DNA from: a virus
Length of the DNA: 37,098 nucleotides
IMG/VR virus record: IMGVR_UViG_3300032516_000081
Coordinates: 1-37,098 of that record
Direction: 5' to 3' (one strand)
Position 1 is the first letter of the stretch. Each line of letters begins with the position of its first letter. A model generated the notes under the pieces. The model ran no database searches, had not been told where the DNA came from, and worked only from the letters and a program-made list of their open reading frames with translations. The translations under genes were made by a program, and so were the position numbers. This document shows, one piece after another, positions 1,751 to 32,921 of the stretch.

Positions 1751-2142
1751 GCGTCACCTCCGGGAGAGAGGGAGAAGGCGGCGTCGACGCCGGGCCCGAG
1801 GAGCCCGACGTCCGCCGGCCGGCAGTAGATCGTGACGCCGGCGTCCGTGCCGCAGAAGTAGCTCCGGACGACGAGCATCGCGCCCGCCGGGCAGTCGACC
1901 GGGTCGGCCGCGCCGTGACTCCACGGGGCCGGCACCCGGAGATGACCGATGCGGCCGCCGACGAAGTCGATCACGGCGACCTTGTCGACCGTCCCGCCGG
2001 ACCATGAGAGGTCGAGGTGGAGCGGAGAGCTCCACATCGCGACCCGGACCTTCCGGCCGCGGTAGTCCGGGAACGTGGCGGCGAGGATCGCCTTCACGCG
2101 CGGATCCGACCGCGGAGCCGGGAGGGAGGAGGAGAGGGCCAT
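1747..2142 (-). CDS. 131-residue hypothetical protein, first gene of leftward block L1
   Basis: The start is ATG 2142 with an AAGGAGG ribosome site 6-7 bases upstream on the minus strand. It is the first gene after the promoter at 2205-2233. The N-terminal half reads DPRVKAILAATFPDYRGRKV followed by DLSWSGGTVDKVAVIDF. This is a helix then strand-turn-strand pattern that loosely recalls the LPD29-like neighbour (aFPdyrGRk...sW.GGt), so the two may be distant relatives. The C-terminal part (GAMLVVRSYFCGTDAGVTIYC) looks like beta strands. No catalytic motif is visible and function is unknown. Confidence 0.75.
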   Translation of the reverse strand: MALSSSLPAPRSDPRVKAILAATFPDYRGRKVRVAMWSSPLHLDLSWSGGTVDKVAVIDFVGGRIGHLRVPAPWSHGAADPVDCPAGAMLVVRSYFCGTDAGVTIYCRPADVGLLGPGVDAAFSLSPGGDA

Positions 2143-2204
2143 CGAAGCCTCCTTCGAGGGGCGGTCCGGGCGCCGGTTCCGAGCTCGGCGCGGGGGACAA
2201 CTAG

Positions 2205-2233
2205 AGTATGACCGTCCGCACTACGCCTGTCAA
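2205..2233 (-). promoter_or_regulatory. Sigma-70-type promoter of leftward block L1
   Basis: On the minus strand a perfect TTGACA (2233-2228) is followed after 17 bases by CATACT (2210-2205, four of six matches to TATAAT). Transcription would start near 2198, leaving a leader of about 55 bases before ATG 2142. The spacing and position mirror the promoter in front of block L2. Confidence 0.65.
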
Positions 2234-2274
2234 GTGCTAACCGTTCACACGTGCGCGGTACTTCCTTCGCGGTG

Positions 2275-2280
2275 TACGAT
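2275..2280 (+). promoter_or_regulatory. Weak candidate -10 element for rightward block R1
   Basis: TACGAT followed by CG resembles the -10 of the block R2 promoter (22792-22797, also TACGATCG) and lies about 53 bases before the protease start. No good -35 hexamer is present 16-18 bases upstream, so a factor-dependent (late) promoter is possible. The call rests mainly on position and the shared octamer. Confidence 0.3.
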
Positions 2281-2332
2281 CGCGTGCGATGGGCCGCGCG
2301 TGCCGTGGTCCCGCTCGAGGAGAGGCGACGCG

Positions 2333-3175
2333 ATGGGCGAAGAGCTCGAGGATCTCGACGAGTCGCCGGCCGTCGGCGAGTACGCATGGAAGAGCGCGCC
2401 GGCGGCGCGCTTCGCACTCGACGAAGGGGCCGAGGGCGACGTCCTCGTCGCCTTCGCGAAGCTCAACGTCGTCGACCGCGACGGGCACGTCACGTACCCG
2501 GGCGCAATGCCGGCGGGCAAGAAGGTTCCGATCTCGGCCTACGGGCACACGTCATGGCCGGAGAAGGGAGCGAGGCTCCCGGTCGGGATCTCGGAGATCG
2601 GCGAGGACGGCGAGCTCGCTACGGCGCGCGGCCGCTTCCTCGTGGAGACGTCGCACGGGCGCGATACCTACCTCACCGTGAAGGCGCTCGGCGACCTACA
2701 GGAATGGAGCTACGGCTACCGCATCCTCTCGAGCGAGAAGGAGAAGCGGGACGGCCGGAACGTCCTCGGGCTCAAGGGCCTAGACGTCTTCGAGATCTCG
2801 CCGACGCTCGTCGGCGCGGGGATCGGGACGCGGACGATGGGGATCAAGAGCGACGAGACGGGGCCGCTTGCCGGCCTTCCGTTCGCCGAAGACTTCGAGC
2901 GCGTGCTCGCCGAGGTCGACGCGGTCGTCGTGCGATCGAAGAGCCTCCGCGACCTTCGAGCGAAGGAAGGGCGGGAGCTCTCGGCGCGGAACAGGGAACG
3001 CCTCACGAGGCTACGCGACGCGATCGCGACGCTCGAGGAGACTCGGGCCGAGATCGAGGAGCTCCTCACGAGGACGGAGCCCGGATCCGTCGAGGAGAAG
3101 AGCGCCGGCCTTCGGCTCCTTCTCGAGTACGAACGAACACGTGCGGCGCTCTCGGGCGTCGTCATCGGAGGGTAG
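2333..3175 (+). CDS. HK97-family prohead maturation protease (S78-like)
   Basis: The start is ATG 2333 with GAGGAGAGG about 8 bases upstream; the longer open frame from 2075 overlaps the divergent block L1 and has no ribosome site. The 280-residue protein fits the S78 serine protease family, which cleaves the capsid scaffold domain during head maturation. AYGHTSW (His72) and EWSYGY (Ser126) look like the catalytic His and Ser, with VGISEIGEDG between them as in family members. The region after about residue 170 is charged and helical (RLTRLRDAIATLEETRAEIEELLTR), consistent with a scaffold-like tail. It directly precedes the capsid gene, the usual order. Confidence 0.9.
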   Translation: MGEELEDLDESPAVGEYAWKSAPAARFALDEGAEGDVLVAFAKLNVVDRDGHVTYPGAMPAGKKVPISAYGHTSWPEKGARLPVGISEIGEDGELATARGRFLVETSHGRDTYLTVKALGDLQEWSYGYRILSSEKEKRDGRNVLGLKGLDVFEISPTLVGAGIGTRTMGIKSDETGPLAGLPFAEDFERVLAEVDAVVVRSKSLRDLRAKEGRELSARNRERLTRLRDAIATLEETRAEIEELLTRTEPGSVEEKSAGLRLLLEYERTRAALSGVVIGG

Positions 3176-3180
3176 ATACC

Positions 3181-4491
3181 GTGGCATCGAAGCTTATCGA
3201 GAAGCGCGAGGAGCTCGCCGCGAAGCGGAAGGCACTCGCCGGGATCTTCGAGGAGGCGGGCGCCGACCTCGACATGGCAGCCGTGAAGTCGCTCGAGGGC
3301 GACTCCGCGACGAAGGCGGCGGAGATCCGCCGGCGCAATGACGAGCTCACGGGGCTCGGGAAGGAAGTCGACGAGCTCGTCGAGCTCGACGGCATCGCCC
3401 GGCAGACGAAGAGCGCGGAGGACGCCGCTCGCGGCGCCCGGTCCGGCCTCCCGTTCGCGGACGGCCGCGAGACGGAGCGGGGCGAGGCGCGCGCGAAGAC
3501 GCTCGGCGAGCTCTTCATCGAGAGCGACGCCTTCGTCAAGTACGATCGCGTGACGCATCGCTCGCCGACCGTCGAGATCGACCTCGCGAAGACGATGGGC
3601 GACTACGTCGCCGATCACGGCGTCAAGGCGGCGATGGATCTCTCGGATCAGATCCGCCTCAAGGCGACGCTCACGACGACCGGCTACCCGCCGGAGTCGG
3701 TCCGGATCCCGCTCCTCGTCACGCCCGGCGAGATGGCGCCGACGGTGGCATCGCTCATGCCACAGGGGACGACCTCGCAGGGCTCGATCCCCTACATGGA
3801 AGAGACGACGACGACGAACGCCGCCGCCGAGGTCACGGAGGGCGACGCGAAGCCGGAGTCGACGCTCGCCTTCACGGAGCGGACCTCGACGGTCCGCAAG
3901 ATCGCGACCTTCCTCCCGGTCACAGACGAGCTCTTCGCCGACGCGCCGGCGATGCGGAGCTACGTCGAGAACCGGCTCCGGACCTTCGTGATCCAGCGCG
4001 AGGACGGGCAGCTTCTCAACGGGGACGGCAACGCGCCGAACCTCCGCGGGATCCTCAACGTCGTCGGCATCCAGACGGAGGCGAAGGGTGCGAACCCGAC
4101 GCCCGACGCGATCTACCGCGCCATGACGAAGGTCGCCGTCGGCGCCTTCCTCGACGCCTCGGCGTACGTGACGCATCACAACGATTGGCAGGAGGTCCGC
4201 CTCCTCCGCACGGTCGACGGGATCTACATTTGGGGCTCGCCCGCGGATCCCGGGCCCGAGCGGATTTGGGGCCTCCCGGTCGTGAAGACGACCCGGATCG
4301 CCGAGGGGACCGGCCTCGTCGGCTCCTTCCGCGACGCCGCGCAGATCTTCCGGCGCTCCGAGCTCGCCTTCGCGGTCTCGGACTCGCACTCGGACTACTT
4401 CCAGAAGAACCTTCTCGCGCTCCGCGTCGAGGAGCGGCTCGCGCTCGTCGTGTACCGGCCGACCGGCTTCTGTACGGTGACGGGCATCTAG
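3181..4491 (+). CDS. Major capsid protein, HK97 fold
   Basis: The GTG start at 3181 lies 5 bases after the protease stop, with GGAGGG upstream. The protein has 436 residues. Residues 1 to about 85 are a coiled-coil delta/scaffold domain (LIEKREELAAKRKALAGIFEE). The HK97 core follows: a long N-arm, the strand region LLVTPGEMAPTVASLM, a P-domain/A-domain with RKIATFLPVTDELFAD, the RTFVIQREDGQLLNGDG segment, and the C-terminal RRSELAFAVSDSHSDYF and FCTVTGI. Cleavage by the upstream protease probably falls near residues 80-105. A perfect hairpin directly downstream (4505-4535) may set the high capsid dose. Confidence 0.93.
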   Translation: MASKLIEKREELAAKRKALAGIFEEAGADLDMAAVKSLEGDSATKAAEIRRRNDELTGLGKEVDELVELDGIARQTKSAEDAARGARSGLPFADGRETERGEARAKTLGELFIESDAFVKYDRVTHRSPTVEIDLAKTMGDYVADHGVKAAMDLSDQIRLKATLTTTGYPPESVRIPLLVTPGEMAPTVASLMPQGTTSQGSIPYMEETTTTNAAAEVTEGDAKPESTLAFTERTSTVRKIATFLPVTDELFADAPAMRSYVENRLRTFVIQREDGQLLNGDGNAPNLRGILNVVGIQTEAKGANPTPDAIYRAMTKVAVGAFLDASAYVTHHNDWQEVRLLRTVDGIYIWGSPADPGPERIWGLPVVKTTRIAEGTGLVGSFRDAAQIFRRSELAFAVSDSHSDYFQKNLLALRVEERLALVVYRPTGFCTVTGI

Positions 4492-9603: not shown

Positions 9604-12141
9604 ATGACACAGGTAGCCGACGCTTACGTACGGCTCGTCGTCGACGAGGCGCAACTCAATAAGGATCTGGCCTCGGCCTCCGGCAAGGCGGGCACGGCCG
9701 CGGCCGCCGGCGGGGCGACCGTCGGCTCCCGCTTCGGCTCGGCCTTCTCGAAGGCGTCGACCGGCGCCGGCGCGGCGGCGGGGACGTTCCTCGTCGCGGG
9801 GATCGAACAGGCGACCGCCTTCGAGGATCAGCTTCGGACGATCAATACGGTAGCCGGGCTCTCCGACGACGTCCTCGGGAAGATGGGCGACGACATTCAG
9901 GCGCTCTCCCGGGAGACCGGGAAGACGACCGAAGATCTCGCCGCGGGAATGTACGATCTCGTCTCCGCCGGCGTGCCCGCGGGCGAGGCGATCGGCGTCC
10001 TCCGGGACTCGGCGAAGCTCGCCGTAGGGGCGCTCGGGACGACCGGCGAGACCGTCGACCTCGTGACGTCCGTCATGAACGCCTACGGGATGGAGGCGAA
10101 GGACTCCGCGAAGATCACGGACGTCTTCGCGAAGGCAGTCATGGACGGCAAGGTGACGGCCGCCGAGCTCGGGACGTCGATCGCCCGGGTCGCTCCGATC
10201 GCCGCACAAGCCGGTATCAGCATGGAGGAGCTCTCGGCCGGCTACGCGCTCCTCACCGCGAAGGGCGTCCCGGCGGCCGAGGCGTCTACACAGATGCGGA
10301 GCGCGATCTCGGCGCTCCTCACGCCGAACGCGAAGCTCCTCGCGATACAGGAGAAGACGGGGATCCAATTCGCGAAGCTCGCGAAGGAGAAGGGCCTCTC
10401 CGTCGCGCTCGAGGAGCTCCGGAAGAGCGTCGGCGGATCCGACGAGGCATTCGCGGCCGCGCTCGGCTCGATCGAGGCGTACGGCTTCGCCGTCAACGTG
10501 ACCGGCGAGAACGCCGACGCGATGGCGCTACAGATCGAGGAGTCGGGCAATTCGGCCGGCCTCGCGGCCGCGCAGTACGCCGAGAAGTCGAAGAGCGTCG
10601 CGGAACAGGGGAAGCGGCTCGTCGCGACCTTCGCGACCTTCGCGCAGGACGTCGGCGGGCCCTTCGTGGGCGGGCTCGGGCAAGCCGTCTTCGCGCTCAA
10701 TCAGCTAGGGCAAGCCTTCGGGATCCCGCTCCCGGCCGCGAAGATCCTCGGCGGCGTCATGGGCGGCTTCGGAGGGAAGCTCATCGGGAAGCTCGGCCCG
10801 CGCTTCACGACGGCGATCGCCGGGGCGACGGCGAGCGGCCTCGAGGAAGGCATGGCGCAGGGGATCGGCGCCGTCGGGAAGAGCTCGAAGATCGGCGGGG
10901 CGATGGGGAAGCTCGGCTCCTTCATGGGGTCGAAGCTCGGGAAGGGCCTCTCGGTAGCCTTCGCCGCGATCGCGATCGTCGAGGTCGTGAACACGTACAA
11001 CGAAGTGAAGGCGGGCCTCGACTCGCAATCCGAGGAGATCTCGGCCGGGATCGCGGCACAGATCAAGGGCGGAACGGACGCGCAGATCGCCGCGTCGAAG
11101 TCGGCCGTCACACAGGGCCTCGCCGACCTCAACGGCGTTTGGGACGCGGGCCTCTTCACGAATGACACGCGCGCGAAGCTCGAGGCGGACCTCGCGGCGC
11201 TCGAGGCGGAGACGGCTCGGCGCGCGACCGCGGCGGGCCCGGCTACCGGCGCGGCGCTCGCGGCAGGAGCTCCGGCCGTGGCGGCGGGCGCGGCCGCGAT
11301 GGCGGAGCCGATCCCGGCGGAGACGGCGGCGGCAAGCGAGGCGGCGGCGGCGGTAGCCGCGAAGACGCCGGGCGAGATCGCGGCCGCAATCAACGAACGC
11401 CGCGACTCGGCGAAGTCGGCGATGGTGGCGCTCCGCGAGGCTCTCCTCGCGCCGATGACGCCGGCGAAGGAGCGAGCTCGCCTCATCGGCTACCTCACCT
11501 CCTCGGCTCTCGCCGAGGGCCTCCGATCGAAGGATCCCGCGATCCGGGCACAGGCGGCACAGACGAAGGCGGATTGGGAGGCGGCGCTCGCGCAGCTTCC
11601 CGTCGGCGCGAAGGGTCTCGGGGCGAACACGGCCGCGGCGCTCGCCGAGGGTCTCCGCTCGAAGGATCCGGTCGTCCGTGAGAACGCGCGGCAAGTGAAG
11701 GCGATCGTCGAGGCGCAGATCGCGGCGGCGAAGGCGAAGGCGGCCGGCGCGACGGCGGCCGCCGATTACGCGGCCGGGATCCGCTCGGGGACCGGGGCGG
11801 TCGGCACCGCGGCGACCGCGCTCGCGACGACGGTCGCGACGAAGATCCTCGCCGGCGTCAATGCGGCCGGTCAACGGGCGGCGAACGCGGCGCCCGGGCG
11901 TGCCTTCGGCGGGCCCGTACAGGCGGGCGTCGCGCGCCCGGTCGGAGAGCGCGGATGGGAGCTCTTCGTCCCGGAGGTCGACGGGCGCGTCCTCTCGCAC
12001 GCCGACTCTATGGCCGTCGCGTCCGGCGGCGGGGCCGGCGGAGGGACGACGGTCAACGTCTACAATCCGACGCCCGAGCCGGCGTCGACCTCCGTCGAGC
12101 GTGAGCTCCGGAAGCTCGCCTACATGGGAGTCGTGGCATGA
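9604..12141 (+). CDS. Tail tape measure protein
   Basis: The start is ATG 9604, 4 bases after the chaperone frame. The protein has 845 residues and sets tail length. Residues about 60-260 match the TP901-like tape measure core (FEDQLRTINTVAGLSDDVLG, SRETGKTTEDLAAGMYDLVSAG, GKVTAAELGTSIARVAPIAAQ). Hydrophobic Gly/Ala segments at about 360-400 and 450-465 could be membrane-active. A very Ala-rich stretch (about 535-600) is followed by two copies of LAEGLRSKDP spaced about 45 residues apart. It ends with a gp15-like GWELFVPEVDGRVLSHADSM motif often seen at tape measure C-termini. At 845 residues the predicted tail is about 125 nm (0.15 nm per residue, inference). Confidence 0.92.
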   Translation: MTQVADAYVRLVVDEAQLNKDLASASGKAGTAAAAGGATVGSRFGSAFSKASTGAGAAAGTFLVAGIEQATAFEDQLRTINTVAGLSDDVLGKMGDDIQALSRETGKTTEDLAAGMYDLVSAGVPAGEAIGVLRDSAKLAVGALGTTGETVDLVTSVMNAYGMEAKDSAKITDVFAKAVMDGKVTAAELGTSIARVAPIAAQAGISMEELSAGYALLTAKGVPAAEASTQMRSAISALLTPNAKLLAIQEKTGIQFAKLAKEKGLSVALEELRKSVGGSDEAFAAALGSIEAYGFAVNVTGENADAMALQIEESGNSAGLAAAQYAEKSKSVAEQGKRLVATFATFAQDVGGPFVGGLGQAVFALNQLGQAFGIPLPAAKILGGVMGGFGGKLIGKLGPRFTTAIAGATASGLEEGMAQGIGAVGKSSKIGGAMGKLGSFMGSKLGKGLSVAFAAIAIVEVVNTYNEVKAGLDSQSEEISAGIAAQIKGGTDAQIAASKSAVTQGLADLNGVWDAGLFTNDTRAKLEADLAALEAETARRATAAGPATGAALAAGAPAVAAGAAAMAEPIPAETAAASEAAAAVAAKTPGEIAAAINERRDSAKSAMVALREALLAPMTPAKERARLIGYLTSSALAEGLRSKDPAIRAQAAQTKADWEAALAQLPVGAKGLGANTAAALAEGLRSKDPVVRENARQVKAIVEAQIAAAKAKAAGATAAADYAAGIRSGTGAVGTAATALATTVATKILAGVNAAGQRAANAAPGRAFGGPVQAGVARPVGERGWELFVPEVDGRVLSHADSMAVASGGGAGGGTTVNVYNPTPEPASTSVERELRKLAYMGVVA

Positions 12142-12962
12142 CGACGCTCGCGATCCGGCCGGATCGGTGGACGTTCCGCGGGACGGACCTCTCGAGCTAC
12201 ACCGTGCTCGTCGCGAAGGTCGACGGGGCCGAGGATCTTCCCGTGCTCCGCGGCTCGAACATTCCCGTCCCGAACCTTCCCGGGCAGATGTACGCGCCGA
12301 AGCTCCCGGACACGAAGCGGCTCGCGCTCGCGCTCCACGTCACGAACATGGACGCGAGCGGCGGCCTCACCTCGCCTACGCAGCTTCGACAGGCACAGGC
12401 GAACCTCGAGACGCTCCGCAAGCTCTTCGCGATCCCGGGCCGCGGAGCTCTCGTGCACGTGCTCCCGGACGGGAGCTCGAGGACGGCACAGGCGGAGGCG
12501 GTCCGCTTCCAATCCGTCGACCCGGAGTACGGCCGGCACGCCTTCGGGGCGATCGTCGACTTCGAGCTCGCCGACCCGTACTTCTATGGCGCGGACGTCG
12601 TCGTCGGGCCGACCGCGATCGCCGCGTCTCCGACCGATCAGGCGATCACGCACCCGGGAGAGCAGCGCACGAACCGGATCCTCCTCGACTTCGTCGGGCC
12701 GATCTCGAACCCGCGCGTCACACAGACGACGACCGGGATCTACGTCGAGTGCCTCGTGACCGTCGCCTCGGCGAAGCATCTCCTGATCGACTGTGCGCTC
12801 TTCACGGCGACGAATGATGGAGTGAACGCGATCGGTTCGATCCGGCACTCCGGGGACTTCCGATGGATGATCCTCGAGCCCGGGGCGCAGACGCTCCGCG
12901 TCACGTCGACGGCTCCCGGCGGCACGCTCACGACGACGGCGGGCGCGCCGTATCACGCCTAG
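12138..12962 (+). CDS. Distal tail (Dit-like) protein
   Basis: ATG 12138 overlaps the tape measure stop (ATGA). The 274-residue protein begins RPDRWTFRGTDLSSYTVLVAKVDGAEDLPVLRGSNIPVPNLPGQMY in outline: the short N-terminal strands and an R-G-x-N/D-I-x-V-P segment are typical of Dit and related baseplate-hub proteins. The middle (QANLETLRKLFAIPGRGALV, then FGAIVDFELADPYFYG) is the family's helix plus ADPyf strand. The C-terminal half is a beta sandwich (TTTGIYVECLVTVASAKHLL, FRWMILEPGAQTLRV). It connects the tube to the tail-tip proteins downstream. Confidence 0.8.
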   Translation: MTTLAIRPDRWTFRGTDLSSYTVLVAKVDGAEDLPVLRGSNIPVPNLPGQMYAPKLPDTKRLALALHVTNMDASGGLTSPTQLRQAQANLETLRKLFAIPGRGALVHVLPDGSSRTAQAEAVRFQSVDPEYGRHAFGAIVDFELADPYFYGADVVVGPTAIAASPTDQAITHPGEQRTNRILLDFVGPISNPRVTQTTTGIYVECLVTVASAKHLLIDCALFTATNDGVNAIGSIRHSGDFRWMILEPGAQTLRVTSTAPGGTLTTTAGAPYHA

Positions 12963-14198: not shown

Positions 14199-15518
14199 GT
14201 GTACGCGCTCGCGACCTCGGCCGGTCCGCGGCTCGCGGGCGCCTTCATGCGGAACGTGCAGACGCGCCTCACCTCGCCGACCTCCGGATCATCGAATACC
14301 TCCTCGACAGTCACGCTCCGGGCAGTCGCGCTCGATCCCTTCCGTCGCTCTCTCGCGGTCTCCTTCCAACTGGACCGCTCCGGAGCCTTCGGGTCTCCAT
14401 CGCAACAGACGAGCGCGAACGTCAACGGGACAGGATGGGCGGACACGCCGATTGCGTGGGCCTCGACGGCGATCAGTAACGGGCAATGGTGGTATCGAGC
14501 CCGGGCGGTCTCCGTCGCCATCGGCGCGGGTCCGGGCGTGACGTCGAGGTACGCCGGCGCGGTCGGCTTCCTACAGGCGGGCGGGGCGGGTATCACGCGC
14601 TCGCTCTACGTCTACGTCAATAAGGGGATATGGGCGACGACTGTCGAGGCGCGCTCGCTCTACGTCTACGTCAATAAGGGGATCTATCCGGGCGTCCTGT
14701 CGATCCTCTCGCGGAGCCTCTACCTCTACGTCAATGAGGGCTTCGTCTCGGTGCTCGCGTCGCGCTCGCTCTATCTCTATGAGAACGTCCGCGACGGCGA
14801 GGTCTTCCCGTTCCTCAATCATCTATCGCCGGAAGAGCAGTACGTCGGCGGACAGGTCGACCTCTTCGGGGACGGCTTCGGGCAGTACCTCGACGCGCGC
14901 GCGTCGGCGACGCTCACCGTCTCCTCGACGAATGGCGGCAACGTCGCCGACTTCGTGCGCGATGGGAGCTCGGCGGAGTGGCAGTCGACGAGCGGCGCGG
15001 CGGCGTGGATCCGCTTCACGTGGGGCGCGGCGAAGCGGATCGTCGCGATCGTCCTCGAGGGGTCGCGACTCGGCGGTACGGAGTGGGGCGTCCCGCTCTT
15101 CCGCTTTGACGACGCGAGCTCGCAGAATGGCGGCGTCGCGGTTCCCGCTCCGGTGCTACCCGCCGGGTCGTCGGCGGAGTACCCGGTCGGAGGCGAGCGG
15201 GTCGTCTACTGGCTCGCGACGCCGAAGGTCTCGACGTACGTCGAGGTCGCGATCGCCTCGGGCGGAGGAGGCACGAACCGCGGGCTCTCGGAGGCGTGGG
15301 TCATCGAAGAGATCGTGCCGGCACAGGCGGCCGAGACCGCGCGCGCCGTGCTCAATCTCGGGCTCCTCACGGAGCAGAACATGGGGATCGTCGCGTGGCA
15401 GAACCGGAGCCCGAACCTGTACCCGGCGAATAGCGGCGTTGCGCTCGGGCCGGCGGCGACGGTCACGGTCCCGACCGGCGCGGTCTCGGGCCTCGTGCAC
15501 GTCGAGGAGTCGACGTAA
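14199..15518 (+). CDS. Tail protein with RSLYVYVNKG repeats and a discoidin-like domain
   Basis: The start is GTG 14199. The protein has 439 residues. Residues 1-130 are beta-rich (TVTLRAVALDPFRRSLAVSF) and resemble a fibronectin- or Ig-like domain. Residues about 134-205 contain four copies of RSLY(V/L)Y(V/E)N..., spaced 17-20 residues apart. The C-terminal about 200 residues (ARASATLTVSSTNGGNVADF, RDGSSAEWQSTSGAAAWIRF, RIVAIVLEGSRLGG) look like an F5/8 type C (discoidin, galactose-binding-like) domain, a carbohydrate-binding fold. A host surface-binding role is likely. It ends in a TAATG overlap with the next gene. Confidence 0.7.
   Translation: MYALATSAGPRLAGAFMRNVQTRLTSPTSGSSNTSSTVTLRAVALDPFRRSLAVSFQLDRSGAFGSPSQQTSANVNGTGWADTPIAWASTAISNGQWWYRARAVSVAIGAGPGVTSRYAGAVGFLQAGGAGITRSLYVYVNKGIWATTVEARSLYVYVNKGIYPGVLSILSRSLYLYVNEGFVSVLASRSLYLYENVRDGEVFPFLNHLSPEEQYVGGQVDLFGDGFGQYLDARASATLTVSSTNGGNVADFVRDGSSAEWQSTSGAAAWIRFTWGAAKRIVAIVLEGSRLGGTEWGVPLFRFDDASSQNGGVAVPAPVLPAGSSAEYPVGGERVVYWLATPKVSTYVEVAIASGGGGTNRGLSEAWVIEEIVPAQAAETARAVLNLGLLTEQNMGIVAWQNRSPNLYPANSGVALGPAATVTVPTGAVSGLVHVEEST
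14597..14683 (+). repeat. Exact 33-bp direct repeat coding RSLYVYVNKG units
   Basis: Bases 14597-14629 and 14651-14683 are identical, 54 bases apart. They encode the first two of four RSLYVYVNKGI-type units; the third and fourth units (to about 14790) have diverged. Identity at the DNA level, including synonymous positions, indicates a recent duplication or gene conversion. Confidence 0.9.
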
Positions 15519-17977
15519 TGGCGATCCGGACGTCGGGCGGGAAGCACCTCGAGATCCTCGAGCCCGGGGCGCTCGTCAATCTCCCGATCGAGGTCGACGT
15601 CTACGATGGCGGATCGCCGGCGACGATGCTCGCGACGATCGAGCGGGCACAGGACGCGGCGCTACAGCTACAGCTATCCGAGCTCGGCGCCGGCCGCTTC
15701 GCGATCGCGCGCTCCGACCCGAAGGCGACGGCCGCCATTCTGGCGAAGGGGAACCTCGTCAAGATCAAGACGGGCGGCGTCTACCGCGGCGCGTGGTGGA
15801 TCGAAGAGCCCGAGACGATCCTCACCTCGACAGACGAGGCAGCCGGCGAGCTCGTGAAGGTGGCCGGCCGAGGAGCTCTCGCGTACCTCGAGCAAGCGGT
15901 CGTCTACCCGCCGGTATGGCCGACGGCCGCCGGCGCGTACCGCTCGGCCTCGCACGCCGCGAACGTGGACGCCGGAGCGACGACGATCGTCGTCGGCAAG
16001 CCGGCCGGCACGGCGAACGGCGACGTCCTCATCGCGGCCGTCGGCTTCGTGGGCGGGAGCTCGAAGGTGATCTCGCCTCCGACCGGATGGCGGGAGATCC
16101 GGCGCGAGGACAACGGGACCGCGCTCGGCGTCGCGTACTACCGCAAGCCGGCGACGACGTCGGAACCGGCGACCTATCAATGGGCCTTCTCGACGGTCAC
16201 GAAGGCAGTCGCGAACGTCATCGCCGTACAGAATGTCTCGAGCGACTTCACGCAATACGGCTTCGCCGCGGCCTCGAGCGGAACGGGGAGCTCGATCCGC
16301 AATCCGTCGCTCGACGTAGCGACCGTCGACGGGATCCTCCTCACCTTCGCCGCGGCTACCGCGGGCTCCGGGATGACGCCTCCCGTCGGGATGACGGAGG
16401 CGACCGACGACGCGCAGCGGTCGACGTCCCGCGTCATGGAGTCGGCCTACCTCATCGGGCCGGCGCTCGGGTCGACGGGTGACAAGAACACGACGAACAC
16501 GACGGGCGCGGCGTGGATCGGCGCGCAGATCTTCCTCCCGTCGACGGCGACACTCGACGTAGCCTTCGGAGGCGACACGCCGGGCGCGATCCTCGAGACG
16601 TTGATCGACCGCGCACAGGCGCGCGGGGCCATGACGTACCTCACGTATGACTTCTCGGGCACCGCGGACTCGGCCGGGCAGCCGTGGCCGGACACGTTCG
16701 AGCTCACTTTCCACGCCGGGACGTCGCTCCTCGACGTATGGCGGCAGCTTGTCGCTCTCGGCGTCGAGGGAGAGATGACGCACGATCTCAAGCTCTCCGC
16801 CTACGTCGACCGGAGCCGGGACCGGACGGGCGACGTCATTCTCCGCAAGGGCTATCACTTCCTCGGGAACGTCTCGAACGTCGGGCACCTCTCCGGGCTC
16901 CGGACCCGGCTCCTCGTCGAAGGCGCCGGCGGCCGACTGATCGAGGTCGGCCCGAGCTCGCTCGAGGCGAACCCGAAGATTGCGCGGCGCGAGGGATACG
17001 TCGCGATGGCGACCTCCGACGCCGCGACGGACCTCGCGCGCGCGGGGACGAAGAGCCTCGAGCTCGGGGAGCTCGAGGACGGGGCCCGGTCGATCCCGGT
17101 CACGCACGGGCTCCTCTCCGCGGGCCTGTACGAACCGTGGGAGGACTACCGGACGGGCGACGTGATCGGGCTCGATCCGGACGGGACAGGCGTCTACTCC
17201 GAGGAGCGCGTGATCGGGATCACGGTCGCGCAAGCCGGACCGCTCGACTACGGCGTCACGCTCGCGCTCAATTCGGTCGTCCTCGAGGCGGCGATCCGGA
17301 TGCGGAGGGAGCTCGACGCGCTCGCCGGATCGGGCTCGAGGAGCTCCGGAGGGAGCTCGCTCGGGCTCGGCGGAGGAGGGAGCTCGAGCGGGGGCGCCTC
17401 CGCCGGTCTCGTGGCGGCGACGGCCGGCGACGCGACCGGCTACCTCATCGACAAGATCTCTGTCTCGCCGAAGCTCTCGAAGGTGCTCGGCGGCGTCTCC
17501 GGGAACCGTCAAGTCGCGCTCGACGTGAACGTGCCGGCGCTCGGATCAGGCACGCCGGACGGGACGCGCTTCCTTCGCGATGACGGCTCGTGGTCGCTCC
17601 CTCCGGGCGGCGGTGCCGCGACGCCTTCCGCCTACGGCACCATCGGCGCCGGAACCGGGGCCGGCGTGAAGACGCTTACCCTGACGGTCTCGGGAATGAC
17701 TCTCGTGAGCACGACGCGGCTACGGGTCGACACGGCGGGGATCTACCTCGTCCACGCGCAACAGCTGATCCAGAGCGGCGGCGGGCTGTATTGGGGGATC
17801 TATAAGAACGGGGCGTGGGTGGCGCACTATTACAACGGCGACGGCTTGTTCGCGGACCGGATCGTCACGATCATGACTTACTTCGCGGTGAACGACTACG
17901 TCGAGGTCTACCAGTCCGCGAGCGTATCGAATGCGTGGTCCGGGACGCACTCGTCGTTCGCGATGCACAAGGTCTGA
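15518..17977 (+). CDS. Tail tip hub and receptor-binding protein with inserted adhesin module and C1q/TNF-like end
   Basis: ATG 15518 lies in a TAATG overlap. The protein has 819 residues. Residues 1-130 and about 345-620 appear to form one hub part (LEILEPGALVNLPIEVDVYD; DTPGAILETLIDRAQARGAM; TFHAGTSLLDVWRQLVALGV), like Siphovirus ReqiPepy6/Tal-type tail proteins. Between them is an insert of about 215 residues (NGDVLIAAVGFVGGSSKVIS, PPTGWREIRRE) of a lectin-like beta module also recognisable in the protein at 30978. A Gly/Ser linker and LPALGSGTPDGTRFLRDDGS hinge lead to a final jelly roll (GIYLVHAQQLIQSGGGLYWG, NDYVEVYQSASVSN) of C1q/TNF type, the likely receptor-binding head. Confidence 0.75.
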   Translation: MAIRTSGGKHLEILEPGALVNLPIEVDVYDGGSPATMLATIERAQDAALQLQLSELGAGRFAIARSDPKATAAILAKGNLVKIKTGGVYRGAWWIEEPETILTSTDEAAGELVKVAGRGALAYLEQAVVYPPVWPTAAGAYRSASHAANVDAGATTIVVGKPAGTANGDVLIAAVGFVGGSSKVISPPTGWREIRREDNGTALGVAYYRKPATTSEPATYQWAFSTVTKAVANVIAVQNVSSDFTQYGFAAASSGTGSSIRNPSLDVATVDGILLTFAAATAGSGMTPPVGMTEATDDAQRSTSRVMESAYLIGPALGSTGDKNTTNTTGAAWIGAQIFLPSTATLDVAFGGDTPGAILETLIDRAQARGAMTYLTYDFSGTADSAGQPWPDTFELTFHAGTSLLDVWRQLVALGVEGEMTHDLKLSAYVDRSRDRTGDVILRKGYHFLGNVSNVGHLSGLRTRLLVEGAGGRLIEVGPSSLEANPKIARREGYVAMATSDAATDLARAGTKSLELGELEDGARSIPVTHGLLSAGLYEPWEDYRTGDVIGLDPDGTGVYSEERVIGITVAQAGPLDYGVTLALNSVVLEAAIRMRRELDALAGSGSRSSGGSSLGLGGGGSSSGGASAGLVAATAGDATGYLIDKISVSPKLSKVLGGVSGNRQVALDVNVPALGSGTPDGTRFLRDDGSWSLPPGGGAATPSAYGTIGAGTGAGVKTLTLTVSGMTLVSTTRLRVDTAGIYLVHAQQLIQSGGGLYWGIYKNGAWVAHYYNGDGLFADRIVTIMTYFAVNDYVEVYQSASVSNAWSGTHSSFAMHKV

Positions 17978-18012: not shown

Positions 18013-18453
18013 GTGGCAGAAGCGAAGAGCGAACCGATCGAGGAGAAGCCGGTCCTCGAGCTCGAGGAGAAGGTCGCTCGGCGCGACACGCGGCGCGCGG
18101 AGCTCAAGGCGAAGCTCGACGACCCGGACGGGAGGGAATGGCACCGGAAGGCGCGCGCGAAGTGGCGCACGGCCGAGGAGCTCGCGACCGTGCTCGGCGT
18201 CGAGACGATCGAGATGTACGATCCCGAGCCGCTCCCGGACTTCCGGGCGAGCGCGCCCGCGCACGTGACGCGCCCGGACGTCTACGGCCGCTTCCTCGTC
18301 GACCGCGACACGCTCGTCGTGCACGACGTCTACGCCTCGAGCGAGGAGTGCGGGATCGACGGGATCCGGAACGGGACGTACGTGCACTTCCTCTCGGAGC
18401 TCCTCGAGACGATCGAGGAAGAGACTCCGTGCGCGGCGTGCATCGGCGCGTGA
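18013..18453 (+). CDS. 146-residue hypothetical protein after the tail genes
   Basis: The start is GTG 18013 with CAGGAGGG upstream. The N-terminal 55 residues are highly charged and helical (EPIEEKPVLELEEKVARRDT). The middle reads KWRTAEELATVLGVETIEMY, and the C-terminus is EETPCAACIGA with a single CxxC. No signal peptide or membrane segment is present. It may be a minor virion or tail-fibre assembly factor at the junction of the tail and lysis genes. No family is recognised. Confidence 0.7.
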   Translation: MAEAKSEPIEEKPVLELEEKVARRDTRRAELKAKLDDPDGREWHRKARAKWRTAEELATVLGVETIEMYDPEPLPDFRASAPAHVTRPDVYGRFLVDRDTLVVHDVYASSEECGIDGIRNGTYVHFLSELLETIEEETPCAACIGA

Positions 18454-18454
18454 C

Positions 18455-18784
18455 GTGGAGCTCCTCCTCTCGGGTGTAGGGCCGATCCTGATCTCCGTAG
18501 CGATCTCGCTCGGCGGGGCGCTCGTGATCTCCCGGTACGCCGGTCCCGCACAGGCGGCCTACGTCGCCGCACTCGAGAAGAGGCTCGCGATCGTGACCGC
18601 GGAACGCGACGAGCTCGACGACGACGCCGGCGGGCTCCGGGGCCGGATCTCCGAGCTCGAGCGACAGGTCGAAGAGCTCCGCACGCTCGGCAACGCGAAG
18701 GATCGCGAGATCGCCGACCTCTACCGACGGCTCGACGCCGACGAGCGACGCCTCACGGCCGACGAGAAGAGGCTCCCGCGATGA
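18455..18784 (+). CDS. Membrane-anchored coiled-coil protein (spanin- or holin-like)
   Basis: The start is GTG 18455, one base after the previous stop. The 109-residue protein has one N-terminal membrane helix (about residues 4-27, SGVGPILISVAISLGGALVI). A long coiled coil follows (about 38-106: ALEKRLAIVTAERDELDDD, RISELERQVEELRTL). This N-in membrane anchor plus coiled coil is the topology of i-spanins and of some holin partners. It is the first of the lysis-region genes and overlaps the next by 4 bases. The spanin reading is an inference from topology and context. Confidence 0.7.
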   Translation: MELLLSGVGPILISVAISLGGALVISRYAGPAQAAYVAALEKRLAIVTAERDELDDDAGGLRGRISELERQVEELRTLGNAKDREIADLYRRLDADERRLTADEKRLPR

Positions 18785-19113
18785 CCGAAGAGATGACGCT
18801 CCGTAGCGTCCTCGCGCTCCTCGCGACGCCTTCGGTGATCGTCGGTCTCGTGCTCGCCGGCGCCGGCTACGGGCTCACGTTCCTGTGGTCGGTCGACGTC
18901 CGCGATCCCGTGCGGCTCTACGGGATCGCCGTCGTCCCGGGTCTCGCCTTCCTCGCGCTCCTCTTCGGGCTCCGGCTCGCCGCGGGCGTCGCGAGCCCGG
19001 TCTATCCTGTGCTCATCGCCGATTGGCTCCTCTTCGCTAACGTGGCATTCGGCGCGGTCATCGCTCGCCGGCGCTTCGTCCGGCGGCGCCTCGGGACAGG
19101 AGACAAGGAATGA
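18781..19113 (+). CDS. Three-helix membrane protein, holin candidate
   Basis: ATG 18781 overlaps the upstream stop (ATGA). The 110-residue protein has three predicted membrane helices: about 16-36 (TPSVIVGLVLAGAGYGLTFL), 46-68 (LYGIAVVPGLAFLALLFGLR) and 73-93 (VYPVLIADWLLFANVAFGAV). A basic tail RRRFVRRR follows. Three helices with a positive C-terminus and a place directly before the peptidase gene fit a class I holin. No direct family match is recognised. Confidence 0.7.
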   Translation: MTEEMTLRSVLALLATPSVIVGLVLAGAGYGLTFLWSVDVRDPVRLYGIAVVPGLAFLALLFGLRLAAGVASPVYPVLIADWLLFANVAFGAVIARRRFVRRRLGTGDKE

Positions 19114-20048
19114 CGGAGGAACCGATCTACGGTCTAGGGGCGCTCCCGAACCCGCCCGACGCGCGGGACTACCCGGTCTCGGCGCTCTACGCGGCCGAGG
19201 GGCTCAATCCGACGCCCGTCGCCGCGCTTCCCGTGAGCTACCTCGCGCCGGGAATGCCTCCCGTGCTCGATCAGGGCGCGACTCCGCAATGCACCGCGTT
19301 CTCTACCTCGGCAATGAAGGCGTGGATGGATCGCCGGGATCAGGGGCGGTACTTCGACTTCGACGAGGGCCTCTTCTTTCGGCAGATCGGCGGGACGGCC
19401 GATGGCGCCTTCACGCGCGACGCCTTCGCGCAGATGCGCTCGGCCGGCTACCCGGTCGTCTCCTCGGGCGACGCCTCGGCGCACAGGATCGCCGCCTACT
19501 ACTCCGTCCCGGCGACGTACGCGGAGCTCAAGGCGGCGATCTACGATCTCGGGCCGATCGTCATCTCGACGGCATGGTATCGGTCATGGTTTACGCCGGG
19601 CCCGGACGGAGTCCTCCCGGCTCCGAACGTGATCGTCGGCGGGCACGCGATCGTCGCCTACGGATGGAGCGCGAAGGGCCTCCGGCTCCGCAATTCGTGG
19701 GGCCGCTATTGGGGGTCTCTCGACGGCGACTGCATCATGGCGCCGTACCAGATCGCCGCGCTTTGGGATGCGTGGAAGGCGGTCGACCAGATCGTGCACC
19801 CGATCCCGTACGTGCACACGGTCGACGTCCTCGCCCGGCCGAGCCTCAACGCCCGGAGCTCGCCGTCGACGGCGGCCGCGAAGATCGCCTCGCTCGCGTA
19901 CGGGCGCGACCTCGCGACGACGCGCCTCGAGAAGTACGGCGGGAAGTACGTCGCGAACGGCGTCGCGCGGACCGATTGGCTCGAGGTCAAGATCAGCGCG
20001 ACCCGGAAGGGATGGGTCGCGCGCGGCTATACCCGGCTCATCGGGTAG
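19110..20048 (+). CDS. Papain-like (C1A) cysteine peptidase with C-terminal SH3 domain, candidate endolysin
   Basis: The ATG 19110 start overlaps the holin candidate. The 312-residue protein has a full papain-type active site. Oxyanion Gln55 and Cys61 lie in LDQGATPQCTAFSTSAM, His179 in GGHAIVAYGW and Asn195 in LRNSWGRYWG. There is no signal peptide or evident propeptide, so exit would need a holin. Residues about 236-312 (LARPSLNARSSPSTAAAKIA, DWLEVKIS, GWVARGYTRL) form an SH3b-like domain, a common cell-wall-binding module. Membrane protein genes on both sides make it the best lysin candidate; no other lysin was found. A role in cleaving a host surface or peptidoglycan peptide is inferred. 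Confidence 0.82.
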   Translation: MTEEPIYGLGALPNPPDARDYPVSALYAAEGLNPTPVAALPVSYLAPGMPPVLDQGATPQCTAFSTSAMKAWMDRRDQGRYFDFDEGLFFRQIGGTADGAFTRDAFAQMRSAGYPVVSSGDASAHRIAAYYSVPATYAELKAAIYDLGPIVISTAWYRSWFTPGPDGVLPAPNVIVGGHAIVAYGWSAKGLRLRNSWGRYWGSLDGDCIMAPYQIAALWDAWKAVDQIVHPIPYVHTVDVLARPSLNARSSPSTAAAKIASLAYGRDLATTRLEKYGGKYVANGVARTDWLEVKISATRKGWVARGYTRLIG

Positions 20049-20061
20049 GAACGGAGGGAGC

Positions 20062-20325
20062 ATGGAAGTCTCGGAGCTCGCGACGCTCGGCGGAGTCGCT
20101 ATCGTCGTGACGATCCTCGTCGAAGTAATCAAGCGGGCGGCCGCGATGACGGAGGAGGCGATCGCTCGCTTCGGTCCGCTCCTCGCCGTCGTGCTCGGGT
20201 GCGCGATCGCGATCGGCGCGGCGGCGTACACGGGCGGCGATCTCGTCGCCGGGGCCCTTACCGGGCTCCTCGCCGGCGCGAGCGCCTCGGGCATCTACAG
20301 CTACGCGAAGGGCGTCCGCTCGTGA
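20062..20325 (+). CDS. Two-helix membrane protein, holin candidate
   Basis: ATG 20062 has CGGAGGGAG upstream. The 87-residue protein has one membrane helix near the N-terminus (about 5-25, ELATLGGVAIVVTILVEVIK) and a second segment (about 41-58, LLAVVLGCAIAIGAAAYTGG). A short Gly/Ala helix (LVAGALTGLLAGASASGIYS) follows and may be a third. This resembles short phage holins encoded next to the lysin. Two candidate holins flank the peptidase, so one could be an antiholin or accessory protein. Confidence 0.7.
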   Translation: MEVSELATLGGVAIVVTILVEVIKRAAAMTEEAIARFGPLLAVVLGCAIAIGAAAYTGGDLVAGALTGLLAGASASGIYSYAKGVRS

Positions 20326-20501
20326 AGTGGGCCCGGGTCCGCTCGTGGCACGCGGTCCGGACGTTCCTCCTCGGAGGTTCCGTCGAGACGTATTGCGGCC
20401 GCGTGATCGCCTCGCCCGCTCCGATCGCCGAGGATCTCCCGGCGGAGAAGTCGTGCGAGACGTGCCTCCGGATCATCGCGCGGGCGGCCGACTCCGGGTA
20501 G
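20322..20501 (+). CDS. 59-residue Cys-containing protein, last gene of rightward block R1
   Basis: The start is GTG 20322 in a GTGA overlap. The short protein reads VKWARVRSWHAVRTFLLGGS in its first part, with a single Cys at TYCGR and CETC later, giving three Cys (C...CxxC) and one His that could bind one metal ion. This type of tiny protein is common in phages of GC-rich hosts. It ends 21 bases before a strong hairpin. Function is unknown. Confidence 0.6.
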   Translation: MKWARVRSWHAVRTFLLGGSVETYCGRVIASPAPIAEDLPAEKSCETCLRIIARAADSG

Positions 20502-30977: not shown

Positions 30978-32921
30978 GTGGCGATCTCTATCCGCGGCAA
31001 CGCCGGCGCGTGGGTCGCGACGGCGGCCGCCTCGAGTCTCACGCCGACCCTCCCGACGCACGTCGCCGGGGATCTCCTGATCGTCCGCGTGGCGGCGAAG
31101 GGCGTCAGCGGAGCGGCGCCGTCGACGGTTACGATCTCGTGCTCGACGTCGGGATGGAACCCGTGCGGGACGCAATTCCAGAATGGGACGACGGTCAACG
31201 CGAACGGCCTCGGGTCGCTCGCGTTCCGTGCCTTCTACAAGATCGCCACGTCCTCTTCCGAGACGAACCCGCAGATTGACTTCGGAGTCACGCCGTCGCC
31301 GGGCATGGCGGCGGCGGTCGTCTACCAGAAGGGTGCCGGCGAGTCATGGATCACGCCGACCGGGGCCGGCGGCGGCGACTCTACCCTCCGCACCGCTCAT
31401 ACGGCGACCATCGGGTCGCATATCTCGACGACGGCCGGCGACATGGTCGACTTCTACTCCGCGTGGGGCGATAACTACGCGGCGACCGTCCCGACCTTCA
31501 CACAGGCGGGCCTCACGCTAGACACCGTCGCCGAGCAGCCCGCCGCGGCGGGATCGTTCTCCGACGGCAACGATGGGGCGGCAGACGGCGGCTACCGGCT
31601 CGTCTCGTCGGGCACGTCTTCGGCGGCGGCGGTCGTCACCGGCACCTTCGGCAACTCGGAGCAGGGCGGCTCGTGGACGACTCGCCTCCGGGTCGTCGCG
31701 ACGACGGAGGTCACGCCGGATCCGGTCGCGCTCCCGCTCGCGGTCACGACGCCGACCGTCACCGCGGGCCGGCTCCTCGCACCGGCTCCCGTCGCGCTCC
31801 CTCTCGCGGTCGTCGACCCGGTCGTCACGGTAGGCGTGCTCCTCGCCCCGGCTCCTGTAGCCGTGGCGCTCGCCGTCCCGATCCCGACCGTCACGGCCGA
31901 CGCGGCGCCGGTCATCGTCACTCCGGCTCCGGTAGAGCTCGTGCTCGCCGTGCCGACGCCGGGCGTCTCGGCCGGCGTGCTCCTCGCCCCTGCGCCCGTG
32001 GCGGTCGTCCTCGAGACTGTCGCTCCCGTCGTCTCAGCCGGCCGGCTCGTCTCTCCTGATCCCGTCGCGGTCGTCCTCGCGGTCACGACGAACCCGGTCA
32101 CGGTCACGACGGAGCTCCATCCGGACCCGGCGCCCGTCGTGCTCGAGGTGCCGATCCCGACGGTCACGGCCGGCACCGCGGCTACGTCGGTCTCGCCCGA
32201 TCCCGTCGCACTCACGCTCGCCGTTCCGACGCCGACGCTCCTCGTCGGTCGCGAGCTCGAACCCGCGCCCGTCACGCTTCCGCTCGTCGTGCCGGTGCCT
32301 ATCGCGACCGCGGGCGTCCTCGTGTCGCCGGCGCCCGTCGAGCTTGTGCTCTCCGTCCCGGTGCCGACGCTCGTCGTCGGGATCATCCTCGCGCCCGCGC
32401 CCGCGCCCGTCGTGCTCGAGGTTCCGACGCCGGTCGTCAACGTGGGCGGCTCCGTCACGGTTTCGCCGGCTCCCGTGGCACTCGTGCTCGAGGTTCCGAC
32501 GCCGACGGTAGCGGCGACCGTCTACCTCGAGCCGGCTCCCGTCGGGCTCTCTTTCGAGGTTCCGATCCCCGTCGTCTCCGCCGGCGTGCTCGTGACGCCC
32601 GATCCTGTGCTCCTCGAGCTCGCGGTCCCGACGCCCGTCGTCGCGGCGTCCGTGCTCCTCGCGCCCGATCCTGTCGAGCTCGTGCTCGCGGTTCCGGTGC
32701 CGCTCGTCACGAACACGGACATAGGCGTCCTCGTGACGCCGGCTCCCGTGCCTATCGCTCTCGTCGTCGGGAGCGTGACTGTTACGATCTCCGGGCACCC
32801 GAAGGTCGTCGTCGTCGCCGCGGATGCGAGGCGGATCTCCGTCGTCCCGGTCGACTCGAGGCGTAGCATCGCCGCGGCGGGCGACGATCGCCGCGTGCTA
32901 GTGGAGGTCGGCGATGGCTAG
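30978..32921 (+). CDS. Fibre-like protein: lectin-like module plus about 16 repeats of 22 residues
   Basis: GTG 30978 has GGAGGGGAGG upstream. The protein has 647 residues. The first about 245 residues are a beta module (AGDLLIVRVAAKGVSG, SGWNPCGTQFQNGTTV) similar in order to the insert of the tail hub protein at 15518. Residues about 246-600 are a run of near-identical 22-residue units, consensus xPAPVxLxLxVPTPxVxAGxLL. The last about 45 residues (PKVVVVAADARRISVV, DDRRVLVEV) form a small charged cap. Likely an extended fibre or capsid-surface spike. Its place between terminase and portal is unusual for a tail fibre. Confidence 0.72.
   Translation: MAISIRGNAGAWVATAAASSLTPTLPTHVAGDLLIVRVAAKGVSGAAPSTVTISCSTSGWNPCGTQFQNGTTVNANGLGSLAFRAFYKIATSSSETNPQIDFGVTPSPGMAAAVVYQKGAGESWITPTGAGGGDSTLRTAHTATIGSHISTTAGDMVDFYSAWGDNYAATVPTFTQAGLTLDTVAEQPAAAGSFSDGNDGAADGGYRLVSSGTSSAAAVVTGTFGNSEQGGSWTTRLRVVATTEVTPDPVALPLAVTTPTVTAGRLLAPAPVALPLAVVDPVVTVGVLLAPAPVAVALAVPIPTVTADAAPVIVTPAPVELVLAVPTPGVSAGVLLAPAPVAVVLETVAPVVSAGRLVSPDPVAVVLAVTTNPVTVTTELHPDPAPVVLEVPIPTVTAGTAATSVSPDPVALTLAVPTPTLLVGRELEPAPVTLPLVVPVPIATAGVLVSPAPVELVLSVPVPTLVVGIILAPAPAPVVLEVPTPVVNVGGSVTVSPAPVALVLEVPTPTVAATVYLEPAPVGLSFEVPIPVVSAGVLVTPDPVLLELAVPTPVVAASVLLAPDPVELVLAVPVPLVTNTDIGVLVTPAPVPIALVVGSVTVTISGHPKVVVVAADARRISVVPVDSRRSIAAAGDDRRVLVEVGDG
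31713..32787 (+). repeat. Tandem 66-bp coding repeats, about 16 units
   Basis: Units start with (T/A/S/E)PAPV or PDPV and are 22 codons long; a few have 2-3 extra codons. They differ from one another at many third positions, so the array is old or under gene conversion with drift rather than a fresh expansion. Four or five units carry VPTP as the central turn. The repeats are in frame throughout. Confidence 0.88.

Follow-up and report, generated by a model that had tools for sequence, protein, structure and literature searches.

Our analysis of the window, a stretch of 37,098 nucleotides (positions 1 to 37,098 of IMG/VR virus record IMGVR_UViG_3300032516_000081), suggests that the gene at 19110-20048 encodes a holin-released endolysin, which would be held on the wall by an SH3-like tail and would cut wall peptide. 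We put the probability of this reading at about two in three. Judged by profile comparison and predicted fold, the catalytic domain is a true member of the papain family C1A and lies nearest to xylellain. The preliminary description had already taken the protein for the apparent lysin, a reading that now gains support from the module context, the C-terminal tails and the pattern of transfer between phages. The catalytic domains of known phage lysins come from a restricted range of families. A lysin of the C1A type would bring papain's own family into this range, would imply a host wall with a load-carrying L-peptide or protein target and would represent a lytic enzyme of different specificity. 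It might also explain some of the many phage 'C1 peptidase' genes to which no role has been assigned.

The gene (Table 1) starts with ATG just downstream of an AGGAG motif, and its start shares bases with the stop of the preceding gene in an ATGA overlap. Its GC content by codon position (0.64/0.54/0.90) resembles that of the other genes on this 70% GC contig. All four residues that had been named as a complete C1A active site were recovered at their positions, together with Trp197. Cys61, His179, Asn195 and Trp197 are invariant in every phage alignment that we made, Gln55 is invariant in the alignments of 21 and 44 relatives and conserved at more than 90% in a third set, and the glycines flanking these residues are likewise invariant among the 44 aligned phage relatives. 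The protein contains only two cysteines, Cys61 and Cys208, and hydropathy analysis revealed no hydrophobic segment that could serve as a transmembrane (TM) segment or signal peptide. The gene is under purifying selection, with dN/dS values of 0.30-0.35 between relatives and the window and of 0.14-0.18 among L087, L088 and L089. These values and four full-length homologues with 61-72% amino acid identity establish it as real beyond chance.

Table 1. Coordinates of the candidate lysin gene, its predicted parts, the surrounding module and the prohead protease in the window.
Feature	Position	Strand	Basis or properties
Prohead maturation protease S78	2075..3175	+	phrog_80 3e-14, Peptidase_S78 3e-6
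146-aa protein between tail genes and lysis module	18013..18453	+	no significant family
Small protein with N-terminal TM segment and coiled coil, spanin-like or XhlA-like partner	18455..18784	+	PHROG Rz-like spanin 7e-4, a match driven by the coiled coil
Three-TM protein, candidate holin or antiholin	18781..19113	+	three hydrophobic segments
C1A peptidase with SH3_3-like tail, candidate endolysin	19110..20048	+	312 aa, 33.7 kDa, pI 8.7
Predicted C1A catalytic domain, residues 1-228, including xylellain-like N-terminal part	19110..19793	+	AF2, profile match to 3ois
Gln55 codon, oxyanion-hole residue	19272..19274	+	residue alignment
Cys61 codon, catalytic nucleophile	19290..19292	+	invariant in all relatives aligned
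His179 codon, catalytic base	19644..19646	+	residue alignment
Asn195 codon, NSWG motif	19692..19694	+	residue alignment
SH3_3-like wall-binding tail (predicted), residues 245-307	19842..20030	+	Pfam E 4.6e-5
Holin, two TM segments	20062..20325	+	phrog_1299 holin 1.4e-11
Small Cys-containing protein, CETCLR motif	20319..20501	+	also 3' of the C1A gene in L006

Several lines of evidence assign the catalytic domain to family C1A rather than among the CHAP or NlpC enzymes. The protein scores 21.8 bits against Pfam Peptidase_C1 (PF00112; cut-off 20.7), and neither the Pfam profiles nor CHAP and NlpC family searches gave a match to those two families. A profile comparison, the means by which the preliminary description had proposed to separate C1A from CHAP, was clear in its outcome: a profile of 44 sequences matched xylellain (3ois) best among PDB entries (8e-73), with cathepsins and plant papains next, and all of the best 60 matches were C1A-type enzymes. 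The AF2 model is predicted with pLDDT mostly above 90 across residues 11-230, and a Foldseek search of the PDB with this model returned 3ois first (1e-16) and cathepsins next. A CHAP or NlpC fold, which could have contradicted the lysin reading, was thus not what the model gave, and we consider such an identity ruled out by profile and fold. Xylellain from Xylella fastidiosa and the bacterial C1A enzymes of its type share family, active site, fold and a profile-aligned N-terminal part with the phage protein. However, identity to xylellain is only about 22%, and xylellain has no SH3 tail and is no phage lysis protein.

The tail had been described as SH3b, and this holds as a similarity, with an SH3_3 match at E 4.6e-5, but falls short of a formal assignment, as the score of 24.0 bits lies just under the Pfam cut-off of 27. 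The relatives with 61-72% identity behave in the same way (23-26.4 bits, E 8e-6 in L087), every one of them remaining under the cut-off, and we therefore refer to the tail as SH3_3-like on the basis of its sequence. In L088 it also matches the C-terminus of the amidase lysin family phrog_1794 (6.6e-5). From residue 229 onward the protein has a pI of about 10.3. Between the window and L087 the tail has diverged less than the catalytic domain (dN 0.12 vs 0.25), and so evolves at the lower rate. Its pLDDT stays below 60, and a second AF2 model built with additional SH3-bearing relatives again gave it no confident fold. Used alone as query, the tail had no match among the named phages or in the PDB, and in viral contigs we found it joined to C1A domains only and to no other catalytic domain.

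The preliminary description placed the gene in a lysis cassette, and its neighbours bear this out: the phrog_1299 holin gene follows directly and two small TM genes directly precede it. The module comes after the tail genes and reads, on the plus strand, from the 146-aa protein through the TM/coiled-coil protein, the three-TM protein and the C1A-SH3 protein to the holin. Parts of this arrangement recur in other phages. L090, whose C1A protein shows 47% identity, carries a homologue of the TM/coiled-coil gene in the same place (36% identity, E 2e-10) and a homologue of the three-TM gene directly upstream of its C1A gene (26% identity, E 1e-7). Moreover, the small Cys-containing protein is shared with L006 in addition to the C1A gene, at 40% identity over 62 aa (E 3e-5).

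The remainder of the window is a typical tailed-phage gene set. Tail genes lie upstream of the module (tape measure at 9604-12141, Dit at 12138-12962 and minor tail at 15518-17977), terminase, portal and head-morphogenesis genes are found at the right end of the contig, and the capsid genes at its left end. This placement of the head genes suggests a circularly permuted and nearly whole genome; the record is classed as linear. The ORF at 2251-4491 that matches capsid proteins appears over-extended at its start, as its first part overlaps, in another frame, the S78 protease gene at 2075-3175, and the major capsid match is confined to the C-terminal part of the ORF. Between terminase and portal, a 647-aa ORF (30978-32921) has no Pfam or PHROG match. 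The GC content and the relatives of the tail genes (Siphovirus ReqiPepy6 Gp37 type) suggest an actinobacterial host. A scan of the genome collection for bacterial homologues retrieved only a Gemmatimonadetes MAG contig (28%).

The preliminary description had found no other lysin candidate, and our search for a second lysin agrees with it. The Pfam scan covered two sets of ten ORFs and 46 ORFs (with two repeats), some 60 further ORFs, and yielded head, portal, tail, RecT, YqaJ, S78 and HTH families but no lysin domain. Likewise, a six-frame search of the window for nine families (Amidase_2, GH25, CHAP, M23, Amidase_3, NlpC, M15_4, GH108 and SLT) gave no match. The status as the only recognisable lysin is to be read within the sensitivity of Pfam and within a contig classed as linear, outside of which a lysin could lie.

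The strongest evidence for the lysin reading comes from the close relatives. A first scan with the protein alone as query returned no relatives. L087, L088 and L089 share about 70% of amino acids with the window protein over residues 7-311, tail included, and L093 (61%) was found by a scan with the tail as query; all four homologues are similar over their whole length. In blastn comparisons of the window with these four contigs the C1A gene alone matches (70-76% nucleotide identity), and tblastn of 22 window proteins against them gave no match besides this gene. In each of the four, a coiled-coil/TM gene precedes the C1A gene and a three-TM gene follows it. One gene common to otherwise unrelated phages, each time within the same kind of module, argues for the exchange of a lysis gene, and since it is the sole gene common to several such phages, its product is probably a wall-breaking enzyme.

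C1A genes in other phages point in the same direction. Among them, the C1A protein of L009 ends in PG_binding_1 (41.5 bits) and that of L041 (1912-2790) is fused to SLH (42.4 bits), both above the Pfam cut-offs; the short L041 contig also carries an Amidase_2 gene. L022 shows a weak SH3_3 match and has a TM/coiled-coil gene before and a two-TM gene after its C1A gene. Several phage C1A proteins have no tail. The repeated fusion of C1A domains to differing wall-binding modules supports a wall target. Furthermore, of 49 clusters of stand-alone phage C1A genes, 21 have a small TM gene no more than two genes away, compared with 93 among 498 control genes (Fisher p 3e-4), a difference that we regard as supportive only, because the underlying gene calls were crude (longest or GC3-weighted ORFs).

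As an endolysin, the protein would build up in the cytoplasm, as expected for an enzyme with no signal peptide. The holins on either side, encoded at 18781-19113 and/or 20062-20325, would permeabilise the membrane and let the enzyme reach the wall, where the basic tail would keep it in place while Cys61, His179 and Asn195 would cut peptide bonds as a thiol peptidase and so lyse the cell. C1A enzymes usually cleave L-L bonds, whereas D-residues take part in most bonds of the peptidoglycan stem peptide. This preference restricts the choice of peptidoglycan targets and counts against an endolysin, as does the C1A protein of L090, which occurs in the same module with no SH3 tail. Because C1A enzymes cut between L-residues, the likeliest target would have an L-residue at the scissile bond, either in a cross-bridge or in the stem peptide, an assignment that we make tentatively and at slightly less than even odds. 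A wall-attached protein is our second choice and a rather doubtful one.

The protein could also be an accessory lysis protease, which would strip wall-attached or surface (S-layer-like) proteins or trim a protein layer and thereby help an unrecognised main lysin or a spanin-like partner, with the load-bearing wall not being its target. Protein is the usual substrate of C1A enzymes, and the SLH tail of the L041 relative would suit such a role. The C1A genes of THSA-485A, L008 and Mufasa8 have a gene for GH25, GH108 and an annotated metallo-endopeptidase, respectively, next to them or nearby, and with a conventional lysin gene so close they may be mere accessories there. A 'peptidoglycan-binding' gene is found beside or near the C1A gene of a Kitasatospora plasmid prophage. 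Overall, one or more of the seven lysin families that were searched first scored above the cut-off in about 15 of 40 records, a set that includes many fragments. However, Pfam scans and family searches revealed no other lysin domain on L093 (42 kb) or L006 (41 kb), so that these phages resemble the window in having no recognisable second lysin, and the SH3_3 and PG_binding_1 tails indicate the wall rather than a protein layer. We therefore consider an accessory role unlikely for the window protein. The C1A domain may originally have been an accessory that took over as sole lysin in the group of the window; alternatively, it may be an accessory everywhere, with a main lysin here that is unrecognised.

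Roles outside lysis fit still less well. In L046-L065 (for example L059:4881-8528), very large ORFs of 900-1700 aa, mostly from one recurrent group, carry a C1A domain at their end and are possibly virion-associated; together with the position of our gene after the tail genes, they would fit a tail-associated entry enzyme or a maturation protease. A prohead protease role is nevertheless ruled out by the separate S78/phrog_80 protease, which makes the C1A gene dispensable for prohead maturation, and a stand-alone 312-aa protein, encoded within a holin module and found in phages with unrelated tail genes, makes any virion or structural function very improbable. As to a cargo protease that attacks a competing phage or a host regulatory protein, some mobile C1A genes do lie outside lysis modules: on a small plasmid of Priestia megaterium (L095:4986-6180) a C1 peptidase gene is directly followed by a gene for an I42-family (chagasin-type) protease inhibitor. 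In the window module we noticed no neighbour that resembles an inhibitor or immunity gene, some phage C1A proteins carry predicted wall-binding tails, and the gene takes the same place in a lysis-type module of five otherwise unrelated phages, all of which leaves a cargo function as a highly implausible explanation.

The endolysin reading has partial precedents. C1A genes have already been reported in Caudoviricetes (PMC10380794), and we found C1A relatives on 293 IMG/VR contigs. The earlier statement that C1A-type lysins are rare thus does not extend to C1A genes in phages, whereas phages with a C1A-SH3 protein as their only recognisable lysin still appear to be undescribed. The literature searched, with most subscription papers outside its coverage, contained no description of a C1A endolysin. 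The window protein matches phrog_16701, the family of the 'peptidase' genes of THSA-485A, Mufasa8 and Streptomyces phage BillNye, which encode the same C1A domain at 25-30% identity. As in the window, this gene lies close to lysis genes in THSA-485A and Mufasa8, but there another lysin is adjacent or near; in BillNye it is located near the terminase, and none of the three proteins has the SH3 tail. Among actinophage lysins, the N4 and N5 domains of mycobacteriophage LysA (L5 gp10, Bxz2 gp11) are also papain-superfamily cysteine peptidases, and L5 gp10 consists only of such a domain and a presumed binding domain (PMC3314691). Unlike the window protein, neither is C1A, N4 being RipA (NlpC/P60)-like and N5 C39-like (PMC3314691). 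CHAP endolysins such as LysK (PMC4126393) and other lysins that combine CHAP or NlpC with SH3 likewise join papain-like superfamily catalysis to a wall-binding domain. They belong to a different family, however, as the window protein has the C1A NSWG motif. The protein could stand for a new endolysin class in phages of high-GC hosts, with a C1A catalytic domain as the sole lysin, exchanged between unrelated phages and cutting a wall bond (an L-residue bridge or a wall-anchored protein layer) outside the known targets of the described families, a proposal that we hold with somewhat less than even confidence.

A decayed C1A copy was observed in L007 (4020-4919 and 5354-5814), in which residues about 113-175 are missing and the frame is broken. 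It lies near a gene for a secreted C39-like peptidase and a serine-recombinase-like gene.
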